Part shown: positions 4,847-11,185 of the stretch, piece after piece
Layout of the letters: every line of letters begins with the position of its first letter
Numbering within the stretch: the stretch's first letter is position 1
Source of the DNA: Eubacteriales bacterium
GTDB lineage: Bacteria > Bacillota > Clostridia > Tissierellales > Dethiosulfatibacteraceae
Direction of reading: 5' to 3'
DNA: 36,096 nt
Assembly (NCBI GenBank): GCA_030694905.1
Contig: JAUYTY010000203.1
Location: 1 to 36,096 of the forward strand
Translations under genes and position numbers: made by a program
The notes under the pieces: model-generated
Seen by the model: the letters and a program-made list of their open reading frames with translations, nothing else
Told to the model about the DNA's origin: nothing
Databases searched by the model: none

Positions 4847-4875
4847 ATTATATCGTTAATACGAGAAAATAACAA
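4847..4875 (-). promoter_or_regulatory. Sigma-A-type promoter of the hsd operon
   Basis: Read leftward: TTGTTA (-35, at 4875-4870), a 17-nt spacer, then a perfect TATAAT (-10, at 4852-4847). The start of transcription would fall about 4840, some 23 nt before the XRE start codon. No other promoter of similar quality was seen for this operon. Confidence 0.75.
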
Positions 4876-4917
4876 TAAAATTTAAGAACGCATTATTTTT
4901 AATGCCTATTCATGTTT

Positions 4918-4946
4918 GCATCCGCATCGTTTTGCGGGTGCTTTTT
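4918..4946 (+). terminator. Orphan rightward intrinsic terminator
   Basis: GCATCCGC and GCGGGTGC pair (one G-T) around a short loop and are followed by CTTTTTATTTTT on the plus strand. On the minus strand there is no T-tract after the stem, so it acts rightward only. No rightward gene lies to its left within the window; it may insulate the replication module from antisense transcription or be left over from a lost gene. Confidence 0.6.
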
Positions 4947-4985
4947 ATTTTTATCAGCATTCCGTCCGAATTGATCCGCTTTCTT

Positions 4986-5292
4986 GGCATACGGTGAACA
5001 CGATATTTTTTTCTAACAAAATACCTTTACCGGTACTCAACCAGTGTGATTGTGTCCTGTGGATGTTGAGGAGCTTGATTATTGTGACCGTCCGTTTAAC
5101 TGCAATCTCATGGCATATGGTGAGCGGCGAAATAATTCAAAGAATTTTATCCTTTGGTCGTTCAAACAGTGAAAAAGTGTCCTGTGACTATTGAGGGAGA
5201 AAAATGCTATTTGAAAAACCTCAACTTATGTTCTTTTCCAAGGCTATGAGATGAGAGGAAAAAAATTCTGATTCTTTTCGTTCAAACAGATG
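4986..5292 (+). repeat. Degenerate direct repeats, period about 120-126 bp; candidate origin or regulatory region
   Basis: This AT-rich, gene-free stretch upstream of the primase holds imperfect repeats. GGCATACGGTGA at 4986 recurs as GGCATATGGTGA at 5112. GTGTCCTGTGGATGTTGAGGA near 5053 recurs as GTGTCCTGTGACTATTGAGGG near 5177. TCGTTCAAACAG at 5159-5170 recurs at 5279-5290. The three blocks keep a near-constant spacing, so this is an old tandem duplication of a unit of about 120 bp. Iteron-like repeats beside a primase-helicase fit a replication origin; a phage-type operator region is the alternative. No conserved gene is seen in 4848-5350. Confidence 0.55.
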
Positions 5293-5350
5293 GTTTAGCT
5301 CCATTGGTTAGTGAGGGAAAAGAAATTAGCCCTCGGGAGGAGGTGAAAAA

Positions 5351-9180: not shown

Positions 9181-9384
9181 ATGAACACTCAAAATCAAAG
9201 CCGCACCTTTGAAACGGCTATCGGCGGTACGGTCTATGTTGTTGAGTCCTGTGTAAGCGAGTCCGCAAAGGAAAGTGCCTACAACAAGCTCAAAAGGCTG
9301 ATTACCACTAATGCCAAGCACCTGGAAATGATATCGGACAGTTCAAATAAAGATACGGAAATCGACTCGACTACTTCAAAATAG
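9181..9384 (+). CDS. TnpW-like small transposon-encoded protein
   Basis: 67 residues with GGAGGTC before the ATG. The core IGGTVYVVESCVSESAKESA followed by YNKLKRLI matches the pattern of the TnpW family (IGGTTY-V-V-FSE-A-ET...KI-RLI), small proteins of unknown function found beside TnpX-type serine recombinases of Tn4451-like elements in Clostridia. It precedes the recombinase here too (55-nt gap), supporting the assignment. The C-terminus is polar and likely disordered. TnpW has no established activity; a regulatory or recombination-accessory role is possible. Confidence 0.7.
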   Translation: MNTQNQSRTFETAIGGTVYVVESCVSESAKESAYNKLKRLITTNAKHLEMISDSSNKDTEIDSTTSK

Positions 9385-9439
9385 TACGGTAATATCACAG
9401 TGCCTAACCGTTTGAAGACTGTCGGAAAGAGAGGTTAGC

Positions 9440-11107
9440 ATGAATAGACAGTCATTCAACAAAATACAAAGAAAAACACCAGCATCCGATGAGACACTGA
9501 TTACCGCCCTATATTGCAGACTATCCCGCGATGATGAGCTTTCCGGTGACAGCAACAGTATTGTCAACCAGAAAGCAATTCTGAAGAAGTTCGCCGAGGA
9601 CAATGGTTTTCGTAACCTCCGCTTCTATGTGGATGATGGTGTCAGCGGTACCACCTTCGACAGACCGGACTTCAATCGCATGATTGCGGATGTGGAATCG
9701 GGCATGGTAGGAACAATCATCATCAAGGATATGTCGCGCTTTGGCAGGGATTATCTAAAGGTCGGCTATTACACCGAGATCATGTTCCCGGAGTCAGGTG
9801 TCCGCTTTATCGCCATCAACAACAGCATCGACAGTGCCAATCAGCAGGACAGCGACTTTACACCATTCCTCAACATCATCAACGAATGGTACGCCAAGGA
9901 TACCAGCAAGAAAATCCGAGCTGTGTTCAAATCCAAGGGCGAATCCGGCAAGCCGCTCTGCACCAACCCGCCATACGGTTATGTCAAGGACCCGGAGGAC
10001 AAGTTGAAGTGGATCATTGACGAGGAAGCCGCCGAGGTGGTACGTGAAATATTCAGACTCTGCATGGCAGGATTTGGTCCTTCGCAGATTGCCAGACAGC
10101 TTGAAGCGCGATGCGTCAACGTTCCTACGGTTCATTTAAGGAGCAAAGGCATCAACACACCTGCAAGGCCACCGGAGAATCCATACGCATGGCAGTCAAG
10201 GTCAGTAGCCGACATCCTCGCCAAATTGGAATATCTAGGCCATACGGTTAATTTCAAAACCTTCAAAAGGTCATACAAGAACAAGACCAAGATGCAGAAC
10301 AAGCCGGAGGACTGGCTAATATTTGAAAACACCCATGAAGCCATCATTGATGAAGGAACCTGGGAAACGGTGCAGAAAATCCGAGATGGCAAACGCCGAC
10401 CTTCCCGCATGGGTGAGATGGGGATGCTCTCCGGCATGATGTACTGCGCGGATTGTGGAGCAAAGCTGTATCAAGTGAGGGCCAATGGCTGGACCCATGA
10501 CAAAGAGCATTTCGTCTGCGCTACATACCGCAAGGTCAAAGGTGGCTGCAGTTCTCACCAGATTCGCAATGTTGTGGTAGATCAGCTTGTGGCCGAGGAT
10601 TTACGTAAGGTGCTGGCTTTCGCCAAAAAACGGGAAGCGGAATTCATACGAATCGTCACCAACAATTCGGAAAAGGAGCTCGCCAAGGAACTACGACTCA
10701 GTCAAAAGGAATATGAGCAGGCGCGAGTACGTATCTCAGCCATTGATAAGATCATTCAAAAGCTCTATGAGGACAAGGTACTCGGTAACATCACAGAGGA
10801 ACGCTTTTACAAGATGTCTGCGGATTACGAGGCCGAACAGAAAGCTTTGGAAACTCGAGCTACAGTGTTGAAAAAGGCTCTCGATACTGCAAAAGAACAG
10901 AATCTTAACACAGACCGCTTTCTGGCCCTTGTCAGGAAATATACGGAAATACCGGAGCTGGACGCAGAAATCATCCGAGAGTTCATTGACAGAATCATCG
11001 TATTCAAAACAGAAAAGGTGAACGGACGAAGAATGCAGCGCATCCGGATAATCTACAACTGCATCGGTGAAATCAACATTCCAGAAGAGGACGAAAAAAC
11101 GGCATAG
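9440..11107 (+). CDS. Large serine recombinase, TnpX-like
   Basis: 555 residues, AGAGAGG before the ATG. The resolvase-type catalytic domain opens with [11 protein letters not shown] (nucleophile Ser29), then [13 protein letters not shown] (66-78) and [16 protein letters not shown] (96-111) with catalytic arginines. A recombinase domain follows (about 175-310), then a zinc ribbon with Cys336, Cys339, Cys360 and Cys370, a long coiled coil (about 385-490) and a C-terminal domain ending in a basic patch. This is the TnpX/large serine integrase architecture, which excises and inserts DNA at short att sites through a 2-bp staggered cut. The gene lies at the right end of the element, about 50 nt before the tetR break, the usual place for an integrase next to its att site. 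All catalytic residues are present, so it may be active. Confidence 0.94.
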
Positions 11108-11135
11108 CCGCTATAAACGACTATGCCGAATTTTT
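11100..11135 (+). terminator. Intrinsic terminator overlapping the recombinase stop codon
   Basis: CGGCATAG (11100-11107, containing the TAG stop) pairs perfectly with CTATGCCG (11121-11128) around a 13-nt loop and is followed by AATTTTT. It ends transcription at the element's edge. Confidence 0.8.
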
Positions 11136-11149
11136 CAGAGATTAGAAAT

Positions 11150-11185
11150 CCCTATTTGACCGCCCCTAAAAGGGTCCTTTTATTT
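11150..11185 (+). other. Right attachment site (attR) of the element within tetR
   Basis: Downstream of the recombinase terminator the sequence changes into an open tetR reading frame: from about 11166 it codes LKGSFYFHFKSKKE, the end of a TetR helix-turn-helix. The reading frame is closed by a TGA at 11157-11159, i.e. in element DNA. The crossover must lie close to AAAAGGGTCC at 11168-11177. The exact core dinucleotide cannot be fixed without attL or an uninterrupted tetR. Confidence 0.7.

Follow-up and report, generated by a model that had tools for sequence, protein, structure and literature searches.

We describe an integrated element of 14,770 bp in a draft genome of Eubacteriales bacterium (GenBank assembly GCA_030694905.1; 2.81 Mb in 221 contigs). 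Its right part lies on contig JAUYTY010000203.1 (C11), the whole of which (36,096 nt) was analysed and is called the window; its left part lies on a second contig, C181. With a probability that we put at roughly 0.7, the element is an integrative cos-type satellite that is packaged by a helper phage of the Candidatus (Ca.) Heliusvirales type and whose capsid homologue diverts helper heads into small particles. Its gene order recurs across Bacillota: defence cargo, helix-turn-helix (HTH) regulator, primase-helicase, cos, lone capsid, TnpW and serine recombinase. This conserved order, the cos site, the lone capsid and the lack of helper-type head genes in 61 loci largely support the satellite nature proposed in an initial annotation of the window. 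Features are listed below in window coordinates, except where C181 is named.

C181, L069:15720-19337: left part of the element, 3,618 bp, with the remaining hsdR, a gene for a 316-aa Abi_C protein, and the left end
1-11169: right part of the element, 11,169 bp
1-628, minus strand: hsdR, N-terminal part (open reading frame (ORF) map), the rest being on C181 (PADLOC REase_I, E 1e-31)
607-1215, minus strand: cargo protein of 202 aa, no Pfam family above the cut-off
1212-2498, minus strand: hsdS, type I specificity subunit, cargo (PADLOC Specificity_I, E 4e-108)
2491-2895, minus strand: cargo protein of 134 aa, hydrophobic by eye, no Pfam match
2864-4642, minus strand: hsdM, type I methyltransferase, cargo (N6_Mtase, E 1e-60; PADLOC MTase_I, E 1e-260)
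4596-4847, minus strand: HTH_26 regulator, divergent from the primase (Pfam, E 6e-20; cluster called in 22 of the 32 mapped loci)
4848-5350: no gene assigned; contains three 35-nt repeats
5351-7681, plus strand: primase-helicase (Pfam D5_N, E 8e-34, and NrS-1 HBD, E 5e-32; PHROG 1829 DNA primase, E 1e-166)
7800-8087, plus strand: 95-aa protein with CxxC pairs (99% identical in L150)
8093-8179, plus strand: predicted cos-type packaging site of the helper type (phage-trained profile, E 5e-19; alignment)
8209-9108, plus strand: lone major capsid protein, 299 aa, by alignment without a delta domain (Phage_capsid, E 9e-73)
9181-9384, plus strand: TnpW-like small protein (Pfam, E 5e-12)
9440-11107, plus strand: large serine recombinase, Resolvase/Recombinase/DUF4368 (Pfam; PHROG 95 integrase, E 3e-97)
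11146-11169, plus strand: right terminal motif, an imperfect inverted repeat of the left motif
11170-11606, plus strand: host tetR, 3' part (TetR C-terminal domain, E 2e-7), the 5' part being on C181

The element spans from the left terminal motif at G000:C181:15720 (L069) to window position 11169, a 17-base contig overlap being allowed for. The last 17 bases of C181 are the first 17 of the window, and the host tetR that the element interrupts becomes a single uninterrupted TetR frame when left flank, AA and right flank are joined; the junction of the contigs rests on this overlap and this frame, not on a sequenced read. The initial annotation had drawn an element of about 6.3 kb (4848-11185) holding a primase-helicase, a cos-like site, a lone HK97-fold capsid, and TnpW with a serine recombinase. 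Pfam, PHROG and the cos profile bear out this gene set, while the extent has to be redrawn; the restriction operon, then taken as adjoining defence cargo, lies within the element. The 35-nt repeats, at 5037, 5162 and 5282 (identity to the copy at 5037 being 77% for the second and 63% for the third), make the stretch that holds them a possible replication origin or operator.

Searching with the capsid gave 28 loci in genome contigs (26 full-length at 73-95% identity, one at 41% and one partial) and four further loci in viral contigs. Mapping covered 32 loci (the window, L032-L057 and L059-L063), and the gene order, whose conservation elsewhere was a point of the initial annotation, recurs among the 31 further loci mapped. 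Cluster calls comprised capsid (31), recombinase (31), primase (28), TnpW (27), HTH regulator (22) and HsdM-type protein (15), many absences being due to contig ends and some of those of TnpW to the ORF picker's taking an antisense ORF. The recorded hosts include Clostridium, Haloimpatiens, Pseudobutyrivibrio, Thermincola and Syntrophomonas, and also Paenibacillus, Neobacillus, Brevibacillus, Thermoactinomyces and Traorella. With the window, L032 and L059 set aside, the capsids of the remaining 29 loci share 95% identity or more, with a median of 97% over non-identical pairs, which points to recent spread. Element length ranges from 10.3 to 14.8 kb (n = 14 measured). Window-type elements (capsid identity at least 73%) were present in 5 of 150 relatives' genomes and 8 of 391 class genomes (one of these with an internal stop codon), the window's genome being counted each time. 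The searches made of open-licence literature turned up no description of this family.

Other branches, found in viral contigs, have the same plan with other integrases. Serine-recombinase relatives are paired in L086, L088-L091, L154 and L156; L085 has a Tn916-type tyrosine integrase and a Tn916-Xis-like gene, the latter present also in L064. L087 otherwise shares the satellite plan and has, beside cos, a TerS gene (L087:3137-3649) that is 53% identical to helper TerS.

Some observations on individual records may be added. The closest relatives of the window's element are on contigs of other phyla, L032 (a Parabacteroides assembly) and L059 (a Verrucomicrobia assembly), probably through binning errors. 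The Clostridium prolinivorans genome holds a fragment of another satellite-type capsid (G166:C19:3414-3764; 68% identity over residues 1-117). MT838964 (L064), of the wider family, is a faecal record from Mexico that may originate in the particle-enriched study PMC8361208; it was not used as proof of packaging because the text of that paper, as far as consulted, contains no MT8 accession. Excised circles were sought and nothing pointed to one: L032, L039, L046 and L060-L063 have no direct terminal repeat (for L060 and L062 the locus falls short of its contig by a few hundred bases), and in L039/L061 there is flanking DNA on either side.

The link to a particular type of helper comes from the packaging site. 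Window 8085-8212 matches DNA of Streptococcus, Erysipelothrix, Terrisporobacter and Ca. Heliusvirales phages just upstream of TerS, with E down to 8e-10. We name this box cos from its position, as a predicted site, and the cos profile was trained on 11 phages alone. TerS directly follows the box in all 11: it is annotated as such in TPDSL_ph1 only, and the gene after the box in the other 10 is homologous to it (45-65% identity, E 3e-54 or lower), the label being given by homology throughout and L187 having no gene annotated on that strand. An HNH gene is annotated just upstream of the box in seven of the 11.

Of 48 satellite loci, 45 gave one match each to this phage-trained profile (E from 5e-19 to 4e-4); the set is partly non-independent through near copies (L039/L061, L064/L085, L088-L090 and L154-L156). 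Three sets shuffled in two-base blocks gave no match. The box is flanked by primase and capsid, and lies on the strand of these genes, in 41 of the 48; in L092, a contig without a primase, it is upstream of the capsid. Two of the three misses, L059 and L063, are contigs that begin at or within the capsid gene. Among 11 other contigs, which included the helper-type L094, L148 and L152, the sole match was in L152 and weak (E 0.005).

Phages of the Ca. Heliusvirales type (the NatCom phages, with phi1605 and TPDSL_ph1 alike in gene order) are arranged HNH-cos-TerS-TerL-portal-ClpP-capsid. They resemble the satellite in their related primase, cos and capsid, in the order primase-cos-capsid; the satellite differs in having no HNH, TerL, portal or ClpP gene and no delta domain on its capsid. 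The window's primase is 49% identical to that of helper-type contig L148 and 57% to that of L152. With 47 helper-type phage proteins as tblastn queries (E up to 1e-3; tail proteins not among them), the 61 satellite loci (window and C181 included, some overlapping) contained no TerL, portal, ClpP, HNH or head-tail gene of helper type, and one TerS, that of L087. As a positive control the same search found TerL, TerS and HNH in four of four control contigs, and portal and ClpP in two of four. The reported lack of portal, terminase and protease thus stands for helper-type TerL, portal and ClpP in both the window and C181; head genes to the left, also looked for, were not found, C181 carrying hsdR, the Abi_C gene, the left end and other genes.

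Nine prophages from satellite-bearing genomes were inspected, and each carries TerL-portal-ClpP-capsid. A strong cos precedes TerS directly in seven, one has a weak cos (E 0.57) and one is cut by the contig end. Helper-type prophages with such a cos, which the initial annotation had suggested looking for, are present in some satellite-bearing genomes; in the window's own no helper was seen. Haloimpatiens lingqiaonensis P8956 has two satellites and two helper-type prophages.

The satellite capsid is, from its alignments, without the scaffolding delta domain. Phage-type capsids (21 rows of 382-411 aa, the neighbourhood being checked for some only) align to the window's capsid from residue 73-118 onward, and the 23 satellite frames from residue 1-31. 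Residue 14 of the satellite capsid aligns with residue 6 of the 282-residue HK97 chain, which we take to be the mature form. From these alignment starts, the satellite protein begins near the mature HK97-type N-terminus. The distance from primase stop to capsid start, cos included, is 264-274 nt in 23 of 27 loci and 524-579 nt in the other four, of which the window is one.

In a tree of 47 capsids, for which the program gave a long-branch warning, one clade (100/100) holds all 23 satellite capsids together with L026, L027 and L058, apart from the 21 long rows. These three had first been labelled phage and were reassigned to the satellites: each has a primase beside the capsid, and L026 and L027 have a related recombinase as well. 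L058 showed no helper-type head genes, and neither did L198 and L199, the longer stretches that enclose L026 and L027. The satellite capsids are under purifying selection, with a median dN/dS (nonsynonymous to synonymous substitution ratio) of 0.08; the corresponding medians are 0.05 (recombinase), 0.12 (primase) and 0.31 (TnpW).

A structure model of the capsid made from a more diverse alignment has an HK97 fold at a predicted local distance difference test (pLDDT) score of 88; a first model had reached 35. Its best structural match is a gene transfer agent (GTA) capsid (Z 21.5, root mean square deviation (rmsd) 4.2, 242 residues aligned), followed about one Z unit lower by phage Mycofy1 and by the capsid-forming phage-inducible chromosomal island (cf-PICI) EcCI2 (9gyi; Z 20.5, rmsd 4.6, 240 aligned). 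Encapsulins match at Z of about 16-18. By sequence the nearest relatives are phage capsids.

In L150 the capsid gene alone is replaced relative to the window. Retained are the 95-aa protein (99% identical, dS 0.05), TnpW (91%, dS 0.38) and the recombinase (86%, dS 0.9), whereas nucleotide identity over the capsid gene is 40-63% (60-column steps, window 8265-9029) and capsid dS is saturated. Flanking identity is at least 88% before the capsid gene, 78% in the step that contains its start and 83-100% after its last codons. So clean an exchange suggests a capsid gene that is probably functional and selected to change, which would plausibly serve the matching of helpers.

SaPIbov5, a Staphylococcus aureus pathogenicity island (SaPI), has its own replication gene and a similar size. 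The likeness to cos-type SaPIs and phage-inducible chromosomal islands (PICIs) lies in a helper-type cos site within the element, and SaPIbov5 adds to the helper's cos a single HK97-type capsid homologue, Ccm (PMC8569155, PMC5052747). In a T=4 shell the pentamers consist of Ccm and the hexamers of helper protein; Ccm builds no shells by itself, and it lowers the yield of the helper (PMC8569155, PMC5052747). It keeps an 87-residue delta domain, which is cleaved off (PMC8569155), whereas the satellite capsid here has none. The present family also differs in its serine recombinase with TnpW, many insertion sites, defence cargo, hosts and helper type.

The Gram-negative PICIs PmCI172, with small particles produced, and EcCICFT073 each have a capsid homologue, in EcCICFT073 with an extra head decoration gene (PMC6092414, PMC6893505); their hosts and helpers are other than those here. 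PICIs use a unique, specific attachment site (PMC6092414), in contrast to the 16 different insertion sites here. We have not filed the family as a PICI, because the plan is common to both and not all of the defining details are. The Vibrio phage-inducible chromosomal minimalist islands are alike in reduced gene content and, in the accounts drawn on, differ in being without capsid-remodelling genes. The cf-PICIs have a fuller head module with portal, protease and terminase genes of their own. EcCI2 shares with our family an HK97-type capsid of its own; here the capsid stands alone, with no helper-type portal, protease or terminase except the TerS of L087. Phage-inducible chromosomal island-like elements (PLEs), also of Vibrio, likewise have a serine recombinase, together with a protein, TcaP, that has a scaffold role. 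Remodelling of the hijacked coat protein by PLE (PMC10945586) and Rcm of SaPIpT1028 (PMC12409344) are other routes to the same end. The initial annotation held that known satellites carry either no capsid gene or a fuller set, which SaPIbov5 Ccm and PmCI172 contradict (PMC8569155, PMC5052747, PMC6092414, PMC6893505). Lone-capsid satellites being already known, what is new is the family, the delta-less capsid, the integrase targets and the defence slot.

By analogy with Ccm, we favour the remodelling of helper capsids as the best reading, and the following cycle is proposed. On induction of, or infection by, a Ca. Heliusvirales-type helper the HTH regulator would be relieved, and the serine recombinase would cut the element out at the AA core; the ends and this core are observed. 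The element would then be copied by its own primase-helicase, and the helper terminase would cut and package it at the observed helper-type cos. The satellite capsid would co-assemble with helper capsid and portal and bias the shell, as Ccm does, to a small size that would fit 10-15 kb but not the helper genome; starting near the mature N-terminus and without a delta domain, it should need no maturation cleavage. Delivery through the helper tail would be followed by insertion at AA-centred palindromes, mostly terminator-like loops, of the kind seen at the observed insertion sites. The exchangeable defence systems observed in the left slot would pay the host.

Alternatively, the satellite capsid might build the entire shell alone, the helper giving portal, terminase and tail and the missing scaffolding domain setting the small size. 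The modelled HK97 fold is complete, the 264-274 nt between primase and capsid in 23 of 27 loci leave little room for a separate scaffold, and the capsid gene is swapped as a unit. Against this, Ccm alone makes no shells and needs the helper capsid, and the delta domain is the scaffold in HK97-like phages (PMC8569155); we consider a capsid-only shell unlikely. Lower still we rate a transposon that moves by its serine recombinase, carries defence genes and is not packaged, its capsid protein being an anti-phage poison and nothing else. Adjoining defence genes and a very wide host range would suit it, and ccm alone reduces phage titre 1000- to 10,000-fold (PMC5052747), yet a pure poison would have no use for a phage-type cos and its own primase, both of which are kept, and this makes it improbable. 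A decayed prophage remnant would account for primase, cos and capsid all being of phage type and in phage order, but is very improbable, since many loci from different classes share the gene set, have defined ends and show purifying selection, and the capsid clade is separate. An encapsulin-like cellular compartment gene, for which the fold match at Z about 16-18 speaks, has next to no likelihood, the nearest sequence relatives being phage capsids and cos, primase and recombinase adjoining.

The satellite with a helper-remodelling capsid was also weighed by co-occurrence, taken as helper-type capsid genes at a minimum of 39% identity in hand counts over overlapping samples of mixed taxonomy, some genomes counted as satellite-free possibly holding other satellite branches. 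Such capsids were found in 8 of 31 satellite genomes when these were pooled over samples, compared with 36 of the 383 remaining genomes of the class sample (p 0.010), and in 3 of 5 against 12 of 145 in the relatives sample (p 0.007). The link is weak because the counts were made by hand, the samples overlap and their taxonomy differs.

Several points weigh against this reading. The class sample alone gave 2 of 8 against 36 of 383 (p 0.18), and the majority of satellite genomes show no helper. In the window's genome a search without a positive control gave no helper-type TerL, and a second capsid was not found at E 1e-20. Near-identical elements occur in several classes, a host range wider than one helper should allow. 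The box is upstream of the primase in L151, downstream of the capsid and inverted in L064/L085 (one element), and missing from the 133 bp upstream of the capsid in L043; the profile missed helper-type L094 and L148 and gave E 0.005 on L152. Packaging of the element is something we infer from sequence, and metagenomic records may be proviruses or integrated copies. A Ccm-like mechanism is an analogy, because Ccm has the 87-residue delta domain and the capsid profile failed to recover it, the presence of the Ccm chain in the searched set being unchecked.

Right ends of the elements have a common terminal motif and left ends another, the two being imperfect inverted repeats. Both flanks were rebuilt for 16 sites, those of the window, L040 and L038 being paired from split contigs, and all 16 are different. 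A hairpin across the AA core followed by a T tract was present at 12 of the 16, against 96 of 3000 random AA positions, with thresholds (at least 6 pairs across the core, 5/6 T on the right) set after the sites had been seen; L041 and L051 fail by pairing, L044 and L071 by the T tract. Pairing by itself is a weak test, since A and T tracts pair anyway: 14 of 16 sites against 1297 of 3000 random sites, or, at 8 or more pairs, 13 of 16 against 159 of 240 pairings of halves from different sites. A folding energy of -11 kcal/mol or lower was reached by 13 of 16 sites (all but L041, L051 and the window's own) against 28 of 240 mixed-half pairings. The hairpin/T-tract and folding-energy results suggest that insertion usually targets a loop resembling that of an intrinsic terminator. 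An exception is the window's own insertion, within the tetR coding sequence; as to an empty site in kin, its flank was absent from all seven genus and family genomes searched, in a search without a positive control.

Transposons of the Tn4451 type (TnpX/TnpW) have GA as target dinucleotide; the core of our element is AA. Multi-targeting large serine recombinases (TndX-like, Cp36) resemble that of the element in having DUF4368, several unrelated targets and an AA core between an A-rich 5' and a T-rich 3' side, as described for Cp36 and the DUF4368 multi-targeting clade (PMC10083194). The natural sites here differ in being mostly terminator-like hairpins; the word 'terminator' does not appear in the main text of PMC10083194, and no terminator-targeting serine recombinase was recognised from titles and abstracts in the open-licence literature.

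The cargo slot is to the left of the HTH regulator, and its content is exchangeable between elements; the host would benefit. The window's element has the type I system and the Abi_C protein there, and among the loci scanned others have a type III system with an OLD/GajA-like protein (L070), a type IIG system (L062) or PbeA/PbeC (L075). In L075, a Thermincola assembly, PbeA and PbeC (PADLOC names) stand beside a 958-aa protein without a PADLOC match (L075:9862-14246).

If the satellite reading holds, capsid piracy, so far a trait of a few islands in staphylococci and Gram-negative bacteria, reaches a clade present in Clostridia, Bacilli and Erysipelotrichales. Such satellites then also serve to carry defence genes, namely those of type I, III and IIG restriction, Pbe and OLD/GajA-like systems. 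Insertion into terminator loops would explain entry into very different hosts, mostly without gene breakage. Delta-less capsids allow a direct test of size setting in HK97-type shells, which genomes with both a satellite and a helper-type prophage make possible. A broader claim, that a large satellite clade has reduced particle making to one scaffold-less, protease-free capsid that builds the complete small shell while portal, terminase and tail are taken from the helper, with a capsid cassette that tracks the helper and a terminator-seeking integrase that lands harmlessly in almost any host, we regard as unlikely.

Outside the element, by eye, two flavoprotein/FMN-binding-like lipoproteins of similar size flank the insertion site (ORFs at L069:13622-15409 and window 16987-18765), and window 12547-14268 encodes a secreted protein of 573 aa with Ig-like and SGNH-hydrolase-like stretches. 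At window 19575-22615, small SirA/YedF-type and YeeE/YedE-type transporter genes stand beside a cysteine desulfurase-like gene, possibly for selenium or sulfur handling.

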